Assembly: GCA_017470585.1 (NCBI GenBank)
Contig: JAFUYI010000017.1
Coordinates: forward strand, 1 to 38,935
Length of the DNA stretch: 38,935 nucleotides
Reading direction: 5' to 3'
Source of the DNA: Alphaproteobacteria bacterium
GTDB taxonomy: Bacteria; Pseudomonadota; Alphaproteobacteria; RF32; CAG-239
Shown: positions 3,562 through 38,800 of the stretch, one piece after another
Numbering within the stretch: the stretch's first letter is position 1
Layout of the letters: every line of letters starts with the position of its first letter
Program-made: the position numbers and the translations under genes
The notes under the pieces: model-generated
Seen by the model: only the letters and a program-made list of their open reading frames with translations
Told to the model about the DNA's origin: nothing
Databases searched by the model: none

Positions 3562-3804
3562 AGCAAATGAAAATTTTGCAGAATCTCAAACGAGGTTCGG
3601 AGCTTTCAACGGCTCTTATCGTACACGGCATTGGTAATGTCGTCAGTCTGTGGGCAAAACGCCTTTGCGGACACTTATCTGGGTATTATGCCCGGGAGCT
3701 TATAGTGTATGTCCAATAGGTTCGCCTTTAAAGACTATAAGAGTCATTTTGTACGATATGATTGTTGAACTCCCGGACACCTCGCTCGAGGTGTCTGTTT
3801 TGGC
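3562..3804 (+). ncRNA. Structured leader RNA, divergent copy A
   Basis: A leader of about 240 nt before a secreted-protein gene. Its sequence differs widely from the other five leaders but keeps their architecture. P1 is TTCAAC (3605-3610) with GTTGAA (3764-3769). P2 is ATCGTACA (3618-3625) with TGTACGAT (3750-3757). A local hairpin pairs TCTGGGT (3678-3684) with GCCCGGGA (3690-3697) around loop ATTAT. The exchange strand CCGGGAG (3692-3698) is also complementary to CTCCCGG (3770-3776), outside P1, which would form a pseudoknot. GAGGT (3592-3596) can pair with the ACCTC of the terminator arm. The rest is a stem-rich insert not present in the others. Confidence 0.7.
3776..3803 (+). terminator. 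Intrinsic terminator ending leader A
   Basis: GACACCTCG / CGAGGTGTC forms a near-perfect hairpin followed by TGTTTT, only about 24 nt before the start codon at 3827, so the gene requires readthrough. Its 5' arm overlaps the leader's exchange strand by one base. Confidence 0.75.
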
Positions 3805-3826: not shown

Positions 3827-4378
3827 ATGAATAAGACTTTTTTAACCTTACTTTTAACCGGCATATCATATACTGCCTATAACGCAGCCGCTGTATCCGA
3901 AAATTTTGAAATCTCCACCACCATTGACCACGAAATAGTTTTAGGCAGTTTCCGCGCTTCGGCAACTGATGCTGATTTAACCAAAACCGATGATATAAAT
4001 TTAGGCACGATTTATGTTAACCCGGCGTTCAAGGAAACCCATGCTTGGTTTAGCTATAACGAATTAGGAGAAATGGATAGTGTGGAAGGCGATTTTATTG
4101 TTCGGGCAGATCGTGCCACTGTTGGCAGATTCACCGCCAATATCACTAACCCGGAAGCTTGCACAAATCGAGCTATATCCTGCGGAGGGTTAAGTATTAC
4201 ACGAAAAAAAGCTTTGTTCGGCGGAAGTGCTTCAAGCAACTGGTGCAATTTTTACATTAAATACAGCGGAAACGATAATGTTTTCACGGTATCGCCGAAT
4301 TGTAATTTTGATAATCCGGCAGACGTTACTCTCGGACCTCATAAGGCAACTCTAACCATTTCTTATAATGCGGGATAA
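3827..4378 (+). CDS. Secreted four-cysteine beta-rich protein, family copy A
   Basis: A 183-residue protein with signal peptide (residues 1-21, ending NAAA). The mature part has the family pattern: TTIDHEI, DDINLGTIYVNP, GRFTANITNPEAC, SCGGLS, WCNFYIKYSG, SPNC and a final LTISYNAG strand. Four conserved cysteines suggest two disulfides. The alternating strands and LGTI...NP motif resemble DUF4402-type or fimbrial-subunit-like sandwich proteins; that fold call is inference. AAGGAG lies 9 nt before the ATG. Its closest relative here is the minus-strand copy at 35674-36237, with a matching signal peptide and early mature region. It is monocistronic, with its own promoter, leader and terminator. 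Confidence 0.8.
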   Translation: MNKTFLTLLLTGISYTAYNAAAVSENFEISTTIDHEIVLGSFRASATDADLTKTDDINLGTIYVNPAFKETHAWFSYNELGEMDSVEGDFIVRADRATVGRFTANITNPEACTNRAISCGGLSITRKKALFGGSASSNWCNFYIKYSGNDNVFTVSPNCNFDNPADVTLGPHKATLTISYNAG

Positions 4379-13134: not shown

Positions 13135-13320
13135 CGAGGAACAACCTCTTACTTGTCTTGCTGAACTTGTTTCAGCATCTATTTTTTGAGGTCTCCTCTC
13201 CTCGTCACCCCTCGATTCCGTCAGGAATCGTCAAGGGGTCTCATGACCACAAGGGACGGTGCGTAAGTTTCAGGAGATGCCTTGACCACCGGCTGTAAAG
13301 CCGGTGGAGGCATGACGAAA
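13135..13320. repeat. Dispersed palindromic repeats flanking the IS1 element
   Basis: No gene here. The block contains the TGCTGAACTTGTTTCAGCA element (13158-13180), a hairpin GATTCC-GTCA-GGAATC (about 13204-13219), and a unit around 13271-13316 with the palindrome CCACCGGC-TGTAAA-GCCGGTGG inside GATGCCTTGAC...GAGGCATGACG. That last unit recurs inverted at 38746-38789. The order GAGGTCTCCTCTCCTCGTCACCC mirrors, in reverse, part of the block at 1000-1060, so these repeats move or are copied as composites. Confidence 0.8.
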
Positions 13321-14207: not shown

Positions 14208-14406
14208 GAAGTGAGCAAAAAGCCGCTTTGAGGTTTAGAACCCTCGTAAGTACCGTTTGTATCAAGACGTAGTTTGATATATCCGACTTTTATGGTTGGA
14301 AGGCAGGGAAATAAGGCTTGTCCCCAATACTTTGCACTATTGTACTTAATAGGTTCTAACTTCCAGCCACCTCGCGGGTTTTAATGCCCAAAAGGTGGTT
14401 TTTCTT
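14208..14406 (+). ncRNA. Structured leader RNA, copy B
   Basis: About 200 nt. P1 is TTAGAACC (14235-14242) with GGTTCTAA (14352-14359). P2 is TAAGTAC (14247-14253) with GTACTTA (14342-14348). A side hairpin TATCAA/TTTGATA lies at about 14260-14279. A local hairpin pairs TCCGAC (14283-14288) with GUUGGA. The exchange strand GGTTGGAAG (14294-14302) alternatively pairs with CTTCCAGCC (14360-14368), outside P1 (pseudoknot). GAGGT (14230-14234), extended by CCGC, can pair with ACCTC plus GCGG in the terminator arm. Helix sequences differ from the other copies while pairing is kept. Confidence 0.8.
14367..14406 (+). terminator. Intrinsic terminator ending leader B
   Basis: CCACCT (14367-14372) pairs with AGGTGG (14393-14398), with an inner GGG/CCC stem, followed by TTTTTCTTT. 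It ends about 30 nt before the start codon and overlaps the exchange-strand partner by two C residues. Confidence 0.8.
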
Positions 14407-14435: not shown

Positions 14436-14945
14436 ATGATGAATAAATATATTTTAATGCTTGGCGTTGCCGGTGTCGCTCTTGGCTCATATTGCGCCTA
14501 CGCAAGCAACTCGGCAACTATGACAGTAACCGCGACCATAGCCCATGATGTGAGTTTGGTTGCAACATCGCCACTTAATATGGGAACACTAACCATTGAT
14601 CCGTCTGATGCAACCGGTAGTTATATAAATCTTAATGGTGACGGCACGACAGGTAGTAAAGGCGGCGGTATTATCTCCTTAACCGGCTTTTCGGCAGGAA
14701 CTTTTACTGCCAATGTCCCCGATTCGTGCAAGGTTGATGATGTTATTGCGCATAATTATACTGAGAGATTATGCTTTCGAGCTGGTGATATTAACCTTGG
14801 CGGGGTTGATTTTATAGAACCATCTGTGAGCTATGTATCCGGAAATACTTTCAAATTTATGTATGATATAATAAGCTATGAAGCAGGAATAATTCCGACT
14901 TCAGGTGATTACAGCCAAAATGTGACCATTGAATATACTTTATAA
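14436..14945 (+). CDS. Secreted beta-rich protein, family copy B
   Basis: A 169-residue protein; a second ATG three bases downstream (14439) aligns with the start of copy C and may be the true start. AAGGAAG precedes it. The signal peptide (MNKYILMLGVAGVALGSYCAYA) and first mature residues (NSATMTVTATIAHDVSL) are nearly identical to copies C and D. After that the sequence diverges: it keeps LNMGTLTIDP and GTFTANVPDSC but loses most of the CGGL and C.F.IKYSG blocks, and ends NVTIEYTL. It is probably exported to the periplasm or surface. A conserved front with a variable rear is the family theme. Confidence 0.8.
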   Translation: MMNKYILMLGVAGVALGSYCAYASNSATMTVTATIAHDVSLVATSPLNMGTLTIDPSDATGSYINLNGDGTTGSKGGGIISLTGFSAGTFTANVPDSCKVDDVIAHNYTERLCFRAGDINLGGVDFIEPSVSYVSGNTFKFMYDIISYEAGIIPTSGDYSQNVTIEYTL

Positions 14946-20068: not shown

Positions 20069-20097
20069 TTTACAATGCCCGAAATTTGTGCTACATT
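20069..20097 (+). promoter_or_regulatory. Promoter of leader RNA copy C
   Basis: -35 TTTACA (20069-20074), 17-bp spacer ending TTGTGC (extended -10), -10 TACATT (20092-20097). Confidence 0.75.
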
Positions 20098-20103
20098 CTT
20101 CCT

Positions 20104-20303
20104 TGAAACGGATAAAAAGCCGTTTTGAGGTGTGAAGACCTCTCAAGTATTGTCCGTAAAGACATAAAACTACTTCTAACCATATTATGGTTGGAAGGTG
20201 GAGGAATAAGGATAAAACCAAATACTCTGCACTGTTATACTTGACAGTCTTCAACTTCCAACCACCTCTAAGGTTTAATGCCCGAAAGGTGGTTTTCTTT
20301 TTT
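20104..20303 (+). ncRNA. Structured leader RNA, copy C
   Basis: P1 is TGAAGAC (20133-20139) with GTCTTCA (20247-20253). P2 is CAAGTAT (20144-20150) with ATACTTG (20237-20243). A local hairpin pairs TTCTAACC (20174-20181) with GGTTGGAA around ATATTAT. The exchange strand GGTTGGAAG (20189-20197) is also perfectly complementary to CTTCCAACC (20255-20263), outside P1. GAGGTG (20127-20132) can pair with CACCTC (20263-20268), the terminator's 5' arm. This copy shows the alternative pairings most clearly because almost all are Watson-Crick. Confidence 0.82.
20262..20303 (+). terminator. Intrinsic terminator ending leader C
   Basis: CCACCT pairs with AGGTGG (20287-20292), followed by TTTTCTTTTTT; it ends about 30 nt before the start codon. 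Confidence 0.8.
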
Positions 20304-20334
20304 ATAACGTTAATAAAAAAAGGAAGTTTAGATT

Positions 20335-20877
20335 ATGAATAAATATATTTTAATGCTCGGCGTTGCAGGCGTTGCATTTGGCTCTTATGCCGCCTATGCG
20401 GGCAATTCCGCCACAATGACCGTAACAGCCACAATCGCCCACGATGTGAGCCTAACCAAAACCGGCGATATAAATTTAGGTACCATCACTATCAATCCGG
20501 CTTATACGGGAGATGATACAAACTGGTCTTATAGCGATTCGGGGGTAATCAATTTAAACTCTCAAGGAGCGATTGTTTCGGCAGATAATGCTACTGTCGG
20601 CACTTTTACGGCTAATATCCCCAATCCGTCTGCCTGCAGTGCAGGAGAATATTCCTGCGGAGGGTTGATAATAGATGCCGGTAGCGGTGACGGTGAGATT
20701 ATGCACAATGTCTTTGGGGGGGATAGTGATGATTATTGCGCCTTTATTATAAAATACAGCGGTTCGGGAAACAGCTTTAAGGTATATCCGCAGAGTTGCG
20801 CTATTTACGATGTATCAACAGTTGGTATCGGTGATCATTCACACACCATAACCATAAACTATTCAACCGGCGGCTAA
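20335..20877 (+). CDS. Secreted four-cysteine beta-rich protein, family copy C
   Basis: A 180-residue protein with signal peptide (1-22, ending AYA) and mature start GNSATMTVTATIAHDVSL. The core blocks are complete: GDINLGTITINPAYTG, GTFTANIPNPSAC, YSCGGL, VFGGDSDDYCAFIIKYSGSGNSF, a last cysteine (QSCAIYDV) and ITINYSTGG. The four core cysteines agree with copies A, D and F. AGGAAG precedes the ATG. The fold is probably an Ig-like or DUF4402-like sandwich (inference). It is a good family reference sequence. Confidence 0.82.
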   Translation: MNKYILMLGVAGVAFGSYAAYAGNSATMTVTATIAHDVSLTKTGDINLGTITINPAYTGDDTNWSYSDSGVINLNSQGAIVSADNATVGTFTANIPNPSACSAGEYSCGGLIIDAGSGDGEIMHNVFGGDSDDYCAFIIKYSGSGNSFKVYPQSCAIYDVSTVGIGDHSHTITINYSTGG

Positions 20878-21324: not shown

Positions 21325-21610
21325 CTCTCGTCACCTATCTCTTCGGCATCATCCCCTTCTATATCACGCCCCCGTCTATTCGGTGTCCTTCCCCTCCTAT
21401 ATCACGCACCCATCTATTCGGTTCCTTCCCCTATCATGTCACGCCGCACTTGATGCGGCGTCCAGGTTAAAAAATAAGCCGATTTTAAACCTGATGCCAA
21501 AGTCAAGTCCTGTAATTGACATCGGGATGGACAGCACCCCGCTTGTCTTGCTGAACTTGTTTCAGCATCTATGTTAAAGGTCCTGAAACAAGTTCAGGAC
21601 GACAATTGGG
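21325..21610. repeat. Dispersed palindromic repeats before leader D
   Basis: No gene here. Units of the CACGCACCCATCTATTCGG... type (the reverse of the tandem array near 560-845), the palindrome GCCGCACTTGATGCGGC (about 21443-21459), TGCTGAACTTGTTTCAGCA (21549-21568) and CCTGAAACAAGTTCAGG (21580-21597) are mixed together. Apparent open frames are repeat translations. Confidence 0.8.
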
Positions 21611-21870: not shown

Positions 21871-21900
21871 ATAGCTTTAATAAAAAAAGGAAGTTTGAAT

Positions 21901-22437
21901 ATGAAAAACTATATTTTAATGCTCGGCGTGGCGGGAGTTGCCTTTGGCACTTATGCCGCATACGCCGACAACTCGGCAACAATGACCGTTACTGCCACAA
22001 TCGCCCACGATGTGAGCTTAACTGTAACTCAAGATATAGACTTTGGCACAATTACCATCAATCCGGGATATACTGGCAGTACATCTTGGCAATATAGCTA
22101 TGAATCTGGTGCAGTCGAATATATTGATCAAGGAGCTATTGTTTCGGCAGATGATATTACGTTCGGCACTTTTACCGCAAATATTCCCAATCCTTCGGCT
22201 TGTAATATGCCAAATGATGCTTGCGGCGGTTTAGATGTTTCTGGAAACGAAGGGGATACTATTTATAATCTCTTTGGAGGAAGTGATAATTCCAACTATT
22301 GCTATATTCATACGAAATACACTGGATCTGATCACAATTTCATTATGTCTGCTGATTATTGTGCAATATACGACATCTCAAAAGTCACCACCGGCTCGCA
22401 CACTGGTACTGTAACCATTAGCTACACGCCAAGCTGA
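21901..22437 (+). CDS. Secreted four-cysteine beta-rich protein, family copy D
   Basis: A 178-residue protein starting at ATG 21901 (MKNYILMLGVAG); a TTG two codons earlier is less likely given AAGGAAG at its normal distance. The signal peptide ends AYA and the mature start is DNSATMTVTATIAHDVSL, as in copies B and C. Core blocks: DIDFGTITINPGYTG, GTFTANIPNPSAC, ACGGLDVSG, LFGGSDNSNYCYIHTKYTGSDHNF, a final cysteine (DYCAIYD) and TGTVTISYTPS. It has its own promoter, leader and terminator. Likely exported; role unknown. Confidence 0.82.
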   Translation: MKNYILMLGVAGVAFGTYAAYADNSATMTVTATIAHDVSLTVTQDIDFGTITINPGYTGSTSWQYSYESGAVEYIDQGAIVSADDITFGTFTANIPNPSACNMPNDACGGLDVSGNEGDTIYNLFGGSDNSNYCYIHTKYTGSDHNFIMSADYCAIYDISKVTTGSHTGTVTISYTPS

Positions 22438-30307: not shown

Positions 30308-30778
30308 ATGAAAAATTATATTTTAATGCTCGGCGTTGCCGGTGTCTTCATAAGCAGTTATGCAGCCTATGCTGATAACGAAGCAACGATGAATGTGACA
30401 GCCACGATAGCTCACGAAACAAATATTCGTAATGTCCGCGATATTGAAATCGGAACAATTACTATTGATCCGAGTTATGACAGGGGATCTGCCTTTGAAA
30501 ATGACTGTCAATGGATGAACGTAAGCAATAGCATAGAATCCATATCCGGAAGTCCTTGCGGATATTTTACCGCAAATTTTGCGAGTGGCTTTACCTGCGG
30601 CGCAGTCTTCGAGGTTACCCCCAACGCTGTTGATTGGAATAATATGCACTTTGACTTTGGAGTTTCTGGCACAGACACTGCTGATCAATGCAAAGTATGG
30701 GTCGAGTTTTCCTATGACGGCATTCCTGCTGTTGATGACTTTGAAACAGAACTTCTCATATCCTATGCACAGGAATAA
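30308..30778 (+). CDS. Secreted beta-rich protein, divergent family copy E
   Basis: A 156-residue protein with the shared signal peptide (MKNYILMLGVAGV...AYA) and mature start DNEATMNVTATIAHE. After IEIGTITIDPSYDRG it diverges: GYFTANFASGFTCGAVFEV and CKVWVEFSYDG keep the strand order, but the cysteines are in different places (four, including CQWMN and SPCGYF) and the CGGL block is lost. It ends ELLISYAQE. GGAAG precedes the ATG. This, with copy B, marks the most variable end of the family. Confidence 0.78.
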   Translation: MKNYILMLGVAGVFISSYAAYADNEATMNVTATIAHETNIRNVRDIEIGTITIDPSYDRGSAFENDCQWMNVSNSIESISGSPCGYFTANFASGFTCGAVFEVTPNAVDWNNMHFDFGVSGTDTADQCKVWVEFSYDGIPAVDDFETELLISYAQE

Positions 30779-35673: not shown

Positions 35674-36237
35674 TTATTCGGGATTGTATTCTATACTTAT
35701 TGTGCTTGTATGCGTACCTGCAACCGTATTCACATCAACCGGTTTTTCATAACTGCAACCGTAAGGATATACCTTAAAAGTGTTTCCCGAAACATATTTT
35801 ATATAAAAACCGCAGGTGTTTTGCTTTCCCGCTCCCAATATCCCACCTAAATGATTAGGCGACAACGACAATCCGCCGCAGGATGATGTTTGACCCCTGC
35901 AAGCTTCGGGATTTGGTATATCGGCGTTAAAATATCCCACCGTGATATTAGTTGCCGACACAACCGGTCCATAAGTTTGTCGCACCACACCGTTTTCATT
36001 ATACCACACAAAGCCGTATGTGTTTTCCGGATTATTTAAATTAACCGTGATCGTACCTAAATTTATATCACCGGTTACATTTAAATTTGCATCGGCACTT
36101 GCGGCTCGGAAATTGCCCAAGGTTATTTCGTGGTCGATGGTGGTGGAAATTGCAAAATTTTCGGATACCGCCGCGGCGTTATAGGCGGTGCAAGATATGC
36201 CTGCTAATAGAATTGTCAAAAAAGTTTTGTTTGTCAT
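35674..36237 (-). CDS. Secreted four-cysteine beta-rich protein, family copy F
   Basis: A 187-residue protein and the only complete family copy on the minus strand. Signal peptide MTNKTFLTILLAGISCTAYNAAA, then TTIDHEITLGNF, GDINLGTITVNL, GYFNADIPNPEAC, SSCGGLSLS, NTCGFYIKYVSGNTFKVYPYGC and TSTISIEYNPE. The protein pairs with copy A (shared signal peptide and TTIDHE region), but its leader RNA resembles copies B-E, so protein and leader have different closest relatives. GAGGAAG precedes the ATG. No clear terminator hairpin follows the stop codon. Confidence 0.8.
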   Translation of the reverse strand: MTNKTFLTILLAGISCTAYNAAAVSENFAISTTIDHEITLGNFRAASADANLNVTGDINLGTITVNLNNPENTYGFVWYNENGVVRQTYGPVVSATNITVGYFNADIPNPEACRGQTSSCGGLSLSPNHLGGILGAGKQNTCGFYIKYVSGNTFKVYPYGCSYEKPVDVNTVAGTHTSTISIEYNPE

Positions 36238-38160: not shown

Positions 38161-38800
38161 GTCGTCCTGCCACCCCAATTGTCGTCCTGAATAACCAAGC
38201 TGTCGTCCGGAACTCCCCCAAAATTGTCGTCCTGAACCACCAAGCTGTCGTTCCGAACTCCCCCTTGTTGTCCTAAACGCCCCCTTTGTCGTCCTGAACT
38301 TGTTTCAGGACCTCTAAAAAAGATGCTGAAACAAGTTCAGCATGACGTTGGAAGAGTAAGCCTAAATACCATTTTTGTCATCCTGAACTCGTTTCAGGAT
38401 CTCTAAAAAAGATGCTGAAACAAGTTCAGCCCCATTTCCTTTTTATGCCGTGCTTGACCTGATTATCCATTCCCCTCACTGATGTCATTGTCGGGCTTGA
38501 TCCGGCAATCCAGGTCTATAAATCAGCAAATTGTTTTACATGGACGCCGCATCAAGTGCGGCGTGACATAGGAGGGGAAGAACGCCGAAACAAGTTCGGC
38601 TTTGATGACAAGGAAAAGTAAGGCTAAACACCGGTTTTGTCGTCATGAACACACCCAATTGTCGTCCTGAACTTGTTTCAGGACCTCTAACCTAGATGCT
38701 GAAACAAGTTCAGCAAGACAAGCAGGGTAAAATACCTCCCCTTTACGTCATGCCTCCACCGGCTGTAAGCCGGGGGTCAAGGCATCTCCCGAAATTTAGG
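38160..38800. repeat. Mosaic of dispersed palindromic repeats at the right side
   Basis: Contains a run of TTGTCGTCCTGAAC-type units (38160-38310), CTGAAC-TYGTTTCAG elements in both orientations (38289-38345, 38381-38430, 38661-38718), the palindrome GCCGCATCAAGTGCGGC (about 38545-38561) with the same left neighbour (GTCTATAA..CAAATTGTTTTAC) as at 499-525, and the CCACCGGC-TGTAAGCC unit inverted (38746-38789). No gene. Confidence 0.85.

Follow-up and report, generated by a model that had tools for sequence, protein, structure and literature searches.

The C4 antisense RNA of phages P1 and P7 lies on the antirepressor transcript and carries two short strands that are complementary to sites in the start region. 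In the fluoride and ZTP riboswitches, the 3' strand of a pseudoknot overlaps an intrinsic terminator. A third RNA, sRNA-Xcc1 (Rfam RF02221), is 88 nt long in its cloned form, for which both ends were mapped (PMC2996969); that paper and the title of Chen 2011, as cited in PMC12444791, describe it as a trans-acting small RNA. It is also known from integron cassettes (PMC12444791), and five clustered copies are listed for Xylella (PMC12189769). C4 antisense RNA is mentioned in PMC8201110.

We compared these systems with a leader RNA encountered in the window, by which we mean the whole stretch of 38,935 nucleotides that was analyzed. The surrounding genome comprises 1.55 Mb and is 94% complete, and its closest named relatives are uncultured rumen and gut alphaproteobacteria, with which its methyltransferase shares 60% identity. 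The original prediction placed a pseudoknotted strand-exchange leader before six dispersed secreted-protein genes (copies A to F). All six leaders were found to be present, with a greater extent than had been described, and the five P1 and five P2 helices given for copies B to F match the sequence letter for letter. Copy A is strongly diverged, with P1 UUCAAC/GUUGAA, P2 AUCGUAC/GUACGAU and P3 CCGGGAG/CUCCCGG. Searches were performed with two covariance models, R1 built from 48 leaders of the same genome and R2 built from leaders of other genomes only. With R2, copies B to F were recovered from the window at E of at most 6e-26 and copy A at E 7e-6. The copies are located as follows.

3600..3797, + strand: copy A leader (diverged), before the gene at 3827-4378, found with family alignment A4; R2 32.9 bits, E 6.9e-6
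14230..14401, + strand: copy B leader, before the gene at 14436-14945; R1 151.5 bits, R2 123.1 bits
20127..20295, + strand: copy C leader core, from H1 to the terminator; R1 181 bits, R2 128.6 bits
21701..21863, + strand: copy D leader, before the gene at 21895-22437; R1 167.6 bits, R2 128.2 bits
30104..30270, + strand: copy E leader, before the gene at 30308-30778; R1 174.2 bits, R2 129.8 bits
36279..36447, - strand: copy F leader, before the gene at 35674-36237; R1 148.9 bits, R2 122.1 bits

The window also holds dispersed inverted repeats of the type CCTGAACTTGTTTCAGG, which are unrelated to the leaders (906-970, 13150-13188, 21529-21603 and 38272-38719), and tandem repeats of approximately 39 bp (553-858).

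From 5' to 3', each leader is ordered as H0, H1, a tail that forms the P2 5' strand, H2, the H3 competitor, the P3 5' strand, P4, H4, a tail that forms the P1 3' strand, the P3 3' strand, and the terminator. The P1 5' strand sits in the loop of H1 and the P2 3' strand in the loop of H4, so that each loop pairs with the tail of the other hairpin. The elements are given below in the coordinates of copy C, together with the evidence for each.

20069..20097, + strand: putative promoter just 5' of the leader, TTTACA, 17 nt, TACATT (promoter scan, position)
20105..20126, + strand: H0, a 5' hairpin whose stem letters vary among copies with pairing retained (sequence, alignment)
20127..20142, + strand: H1, GAGG-(8-nt loop)-CCUC, the final 6 loop nucleotides belonging to the P1 5' strand (covarying pairs in relatives)
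20133..20139, + strand: P1 5' strand, UGAAGAC (pair counts, covariation)
20144..20150, + strand: P2 5' strand, CAAGUAU, the tail after H1 (pair counts, covariation)
20151..20164, + strand: H2 hairpin, UGUC..GACA (both partners vary in 3 of 4 pairs, with pairing at 100%)
20173..20181, + strand: H3 5' strand, CUUCUAACC, upstream competitor for the central strand (pairing compared with shuffled sequence)
20189..20197, + strand: P3 5' (central) strand, GGUUGGAAG (pair counts, covariation)
20198..20230, + strand: P4, stem 20198-20203/20225-20230 around an AAUA/AAUA internal loop (100% paired, 5 of 6 pairs covary)
20232..20247, + strand: H4 hairpin, whose loop holds the P2 3' strand at 20237-20243 (pair counts, covariation)
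20247..20253, + strand: P1 3' strand, GUCUUCA, immediately 3' of H4 (pair counts, spacing, covariation)
20255..20263, + strand: P3 3' strand, CUUCCAACC, overlapping the terminator 5' arm (P3 is 99.4% paired in relatives, where 7 of its 9 pairs covary)
20260..20304, + strand: intrinsic terminator, AACCACCU (20260-20267)/AGGUGGUU (20287-20294) and a U-rich tract (stem pairs, T count)
20335..20877, + strand: secreted-protein gene of copy C, 180 aa (family alignment A4)

The geometry of this arrangement is nearly constant among 102 relatives, in which the AAUA columns of the P4 loop are approximately 98-99% invariant, the H1 loop measures 8 nt in 100, H4 directly adjoins the P1 3' strand (0 nt) in 101, and 1 nt separates the P1 and P3 3' strands in 99. 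P4 with its AAUA/AAUA loop, H1, H4, the terminator overlapping the P3 3' strand, the copy number and the kinship to sRNA-Xcc1 described below were all absent from the original prediction. Two further candidates were rejected. A helix P0 (GAGGU/ACCUC, a putative antiterminator) is invariant in the source genome and is lost in copy A and in three relatives (L065, L074 and L019) while H1 is kept, and an upstream open reading frame in the leader was not conserved. It was noted that the Shine-Dalgarno sequence GGAAGUU (20322-20328) complements AACUUCC at the junction of the P1 and P3 3' strands (20250-20259), and that the motif is present in 132 of 165 copies of the source genome. It could possibly form an extra translational layer, or it may merely be a conserved ribosome site.

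We assessed the proposed helices through pair counts and covariation. Among the 48 leaders of the source genome, 99.8% of the cells for the 40 proposed pairs hold standard pairs, compared to 81% when partners were shuffled and 37-44% when they were slid, which excludes chance pairing. All four Watson-Crick pairs occur at most P1 and P2 positions of these leaders. The same 40 pairs are 98.1% paired in the 102 relatives, and P3 (the pseudoknot of the central strand proposed originally), H1 and H4 covary there although they lay outside the model used for the alignment. A phylogeny-aware test was then applied with nulls evolved on a tree (our own R-scape-like script, not R-scape). With a structure-free alignment, it returned 13 significant column pairs, all within P1 and P2, two of the three helices for which the original prediction had asked for a covariation test, or the further helix P4. 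Among the relatives there were 16, all inside proposed helices, and P3 was significant at one pair only. Taken as a whole, the results strongly support the view that the secreted-protein genes are preceded by a conserved leader RNA with a pseudoknot.

The leader is highly multiplied in its own genome. R1 gave 166 matches in 555 kb, a few of them partial, and at least 149 nearly full-length copies were counted. A leader was also present in 20 of 20 stretches around family genes that lacked a listed one, and 21 further leaders among genes apparently without one bring the total to at least 187 in the 1.55-Mb genome. As the original prediction had anticipated, the matches gather before one gene family: 163 of 165 examined lie directly 5' of genes for a secreted protein of approximately 176 aa, which has at least 150 members, and both the orientation and the distance to the start codon are constant. 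The two exceptions are a leader cut by a contig end and one before a small lipoprotein. It was noted that several contigs end at leaders, and that in the contig pairs C8/C71, C37/C70 and C29/C69 leader copies recur with identical spacing or sequence, reflecting either a redundant assembly or a duplication of recent date. In Pfam, the gene family had stray DUF4402 and Ig-like matches only. The predicted structure of the copy C protein is a beta-sandwich (pLDDT 84.5) whose best structural matches are the FimA and PapE pilus subunits. Because these reach a Z of only 4.4-5.6 and no usher gene was found in the genome, "pilin-like" is treated as a lead only, and a chaperone-usher pilus, considered in view of the weak FimA-like fold, was dropped.

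A wider search with R2 showed that 146 of 153 genomes in the order have the leader RNA, as do 41 of 385 sampled genomes of the class (about a tenth), mostly with few copies each. One genome of another genus carries 94 copies, and almost every one of the 21 that were sampled stands before a type IV pilin gene, while a genome of another family carries 18, many of them before a second prepilin-like family. Other lineages have multiplied the leader RNA separately, before pilin genes. The genes that follow it elsewhere encode outer-membrane barrels, lipoproteins and glycosyltransferases, or are small genes. Because such unrelated genes follow the RNA in other genomes (pilins, outer-membrane proteins, glycosyltransferases and phage antirepressors), it is not bound to the secreted-protein family. 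In one relative (L074, genome G009, 1501-2133), three leaders follow one another in tandem, each with a terminator and promoter-like sequence of its own. As no genes separate them, this hints at an RNA able to exist independently of a gene. Our literature search found no paper connecting this leader RNA with gut alphaproteobacteria.

The original prediction knew of no Rfam family with this order of elements. This stands at curated cut-offs: an Rfam 15 search of the window returned tRNAs only, the best match of copy C had an E of 4.3, and no family exceeded its cut-off in 16 relatives. It does not stand below them, where the 3' half is related to RF02221 with scores under the threshold. Among the copies of the source genome, the best RF02221 match reached 36.2 bits (E 6.8e-5), short of the gathering score of 53 bits. 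One relative (L317) aligns with all 87 nt of the model at 33.7 bits and shares its topology, and another (L323) reaches 56.2 bits, above the cut-off, and also matches R2 at E 7e-14. In the class-wide search RF02221 and R2 coincided at the same places, once above the RF02221 cut-off. The features of RF02221, namely a 9-bp outer helix, an AAUA...AAUA stem, a second hairpin and a 6-nt strand, are found in L317 and the window copies. P3, P4 with its AAUA...AAUA, H4 and the P1 3' strand have the same order and pairing in both RNAs. A chain of relatives crosses the RF02221 cut-off, and the leader is a divergent relative of sRNA-Xcc1, whose 87-nt Rfam model spans only the 3' half and, unlike the leader, lacks the 5' half and the pseudoknots.

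We examined whether the full architecture extends to sRNA-Xcc1 loci outside those used in finding it, nine of which exceed the RF02221 cut-off. Ordered P1 and P2 strands were found upstream in 31 of 36 sRNA-Xcc1 loci compared to 1.9 expected, a few of the automatic matches being non-canonical, and in 70 of 83 viral cores compared to 11.5% with swapped upstream sequence. A 4-bp H1 with an 8-nt loop was present in 31 of the 83 viral cores (2.7% in shuffles). Members in phages, plasmids and alphaproteobacteria thus resemble the leader in having the H1/P1/P2 5' half upstream and a gene just after. Of 70 viral loci, 36 repeat both code strands, meaning those of P1 and P2, on the downstream side, where 0.9 would be expected; these repeats mostly lie at the Shine-Dalgarno site, 8-11 nt ahead of the start codon, and seven sampled downstream genes are of antirepressor types (AntA, Rha, P22_AR, Bro-N and KilA-N). 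Our literature search found no paper tying sRNA-Xcc1 to antirepressors. What sets the window branch apart is H2 and H3, a terminator that follows P3, and a start site with no repeat of the code strands; downstream copies in this branch remain at chance level (3 and 7 of 150 compared to 4.5 and 5.4 expected). In the viral branch, the common 3' half is coupled to another expression platform. Between the P2 and P3 5' strands of phage and plasmid loci (for example L349, L351 and L354), a conserved CCCGUCAG...GCGGUUUUUUU stretch was noted that looks like a terminator inside the RNA and is absent from the window branch.

The phage branch is also like C4, being an RNA on an antirepressor transcript with two strands complementary to sites flanking the gene start, sites that the window branch does not have. 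The leader further differs from C4 in its pseudoknotted 5' half, and no match to C4 (RF01695) was found in the window, in copy C (E up to 10) or in nine sRNA-Xcc1-type loci (E up to 1). With the fluoride and ZTP riboswitches the leader shares the pseudoknot 3' strand that overlaps an intrinsic terminator, whereas its core is different, it carries two code helices and it has no Rfam riboswitch match.

P1 and P2 behave unlike the remainder of the leader. Among 144 distinct leaders, P2 comprises 1007 Watson-Crick pairs and one G-U pair, and the four inner P1 pairs contain no G-U pair, compared to G-U shares of 12% in P4 and 8% in the terminator. Two leaders differ at approximately 3 of the 7 P1 positions regardless of whether their remainder is 65% or 95% identical, and both helices differ even among leaders that are elsewhere 94-97% identical. 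The P1/P2 combination is unique in 143 of the 144 leaders of the genome. Among orthologous leaders across genomes (few cases), which are 82-100% identical elsewhere, P1 is usually retained. In one such pair (L095 and L049, the same gene in two genomes), the leaders are identical outside P1 and P2, and two changes in P2 keep its pairing, which is a very recent compensated change. Leader and protein similarity are nearly uncorrelated (r = 0.125). We infer that recombination of leader parts among paralogs, with selection for matching and distinct codes, would explain this behavior.

The competition between upstream and downstream strands for the central strand, which the original prediction had raised, is supported at the sequence level. 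Its competitor CUUUCAGCC is real: in 99% of 150 leaders of the source genome it outperforms shuffled sequence in pairing with the central strand, with weaker pairing in relatives (significant in 66% of 97). The loop limit of the terminator scan misses this terminator, and its stem and T tract were counted directly; at least 6 T follow the stem within 9 nt in 99% of own copies. As in attenuators, the terminator 5' arm overlaps a competing helix, here the P3 3' strand at 20260-20263, and exclusion may be partial because the overlap is just 3-4 nt. This overlap and the H3 competitor in 99% of own copies support an exchange from H3 to P3 that would block termination. The mean predicted energies (H3 -11.1, P3 -12.8 and terminator hairpin -17.6 kcal/mol) suggest that transcription terminates by default and that read-through would need P3 to be stabilized, whether by P1, by P2 or by some other factor.

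Drawing on the helices, their covariation, the terminator, the position before genes and the sRNA-Xcc1 kinship, all apparent in the sequence, we consider it reasonably probable that the leader is a cis-acting strand-exchange switch, a divergent chromosomal branch of the sRNA-Xcc1 class in which P3 is the ON state and the terminator the OFF state. The central strand GGUUGGAAG would pair initially with the upstream strand of H3. The 5' half (H1 and its tail) would interlock with the 3' half (P3-P4-H4 and its tail) via P1 and P2, bringing the downstream strand CUUCCAACC beside the central strand, which would then exchange partners to form P3. Formation of P3 would keep the overlapping terminator from closing at its base, and RNA polymerase would continue; should P1, P2 or P3 fail, the terminator would stop transcription ahead of the gene. 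Both this folding order and the ON/OFF assignment are inferred, and the H1 and H4 stems may either be present together with P1 and P2 or form in alternation with these helices. By analogy with the C4-type control of the phage branch, copy-specific P1/P2 codes would give locus-specific pairing.

Other readings address the same features. The compact fixed geometry, the invariant unpaired AAUA/AAUA, the pseudoknot/terminator overlap and the use of one core by two expression platforms are typical of riboswitches, and a tentative possibility is that the invariant core (AAUA/AAUA on P4, beside P3) binds a metabolite, ion or protein that stabilizes P3 and thereby controls the terminator. However, the downstream genes (surface proteins, glycosyltransferases and phage antirepressors) have no common metabolic theme, and a ligand switch would not usually contain code helices that change this fast; such binding would in any case add a trigger to the cis-acting switch and not replace it. 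It is rather unlikely that nascent leaders are controlled in trans by an antisense RNA of the same code, in the form of the terminated leader or of its 3' half alone, giving per-locus feedback comparable to C4 phage immunity. The cloned 88-nt sRNA-Xcc1 (PMC2996969) is close to the 3' half, phage loci do carry both code strands upstream and at the gene start site, and nearly strict Watson-Crick pairing with almost always unique combinations would suit such addressing. Yet the window branch has its second downstream code copy only at chance level, intramolecular pairing should outcompete pairing in trans, and processing of the leader found no support.

That the structure merely protects the mRNA or travels with duplicated genes, with no switching, seems very improbable. 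Leader and gene family do co-occur almost one to one, but compensatory change is far faster than change in the rest of the leader, the two histories are nearly uncorrelated, the terminator is conserved, and the RNA is conserved with unrelated genes in other lineages. Least of all do we expect a DNA-level site, for recombination or cassettes, that needs matched inverted repeats. The near lack of G-U pairs in P1 and P2 is what DNA pairing would require, and sRNA-Xcc1 occurs in integron cassettes (PMC12444791), whereas P4, H2 and the terminator are rich in G-U pairs and so fold as RNA, and the U-tract terminator, the constant orientation and the constant start-codon distance also count against such a site. 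An integron attC site, whose arms vary yet match, was ruled out: there is no attC core, and the other helices hold G-U pairs.

Returning to the cis-acting switch, its presence in approximately 190 copies, each with a two-part code, may tentatively be viewed as a set of separately addressed controls over the surface-protein repertoire. The code logic of C4-type phage immunity would possibly have been reused for surface variation, by three lineages independently and with different surface-protein families. To our knowledge, it ranks with the largest expansions of any structured leader RNA within a single genome. What is catalogued as the small RNA family sRNA-Xcc1 probably represents one half of a longer leader with pseudoknots, and a testable function in phages, the control of antirepressors, is suggested for it. 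A further testable question is opened by the source genome, namely whether copy-specific helices insulate hundreds of paralogous switches from one another.
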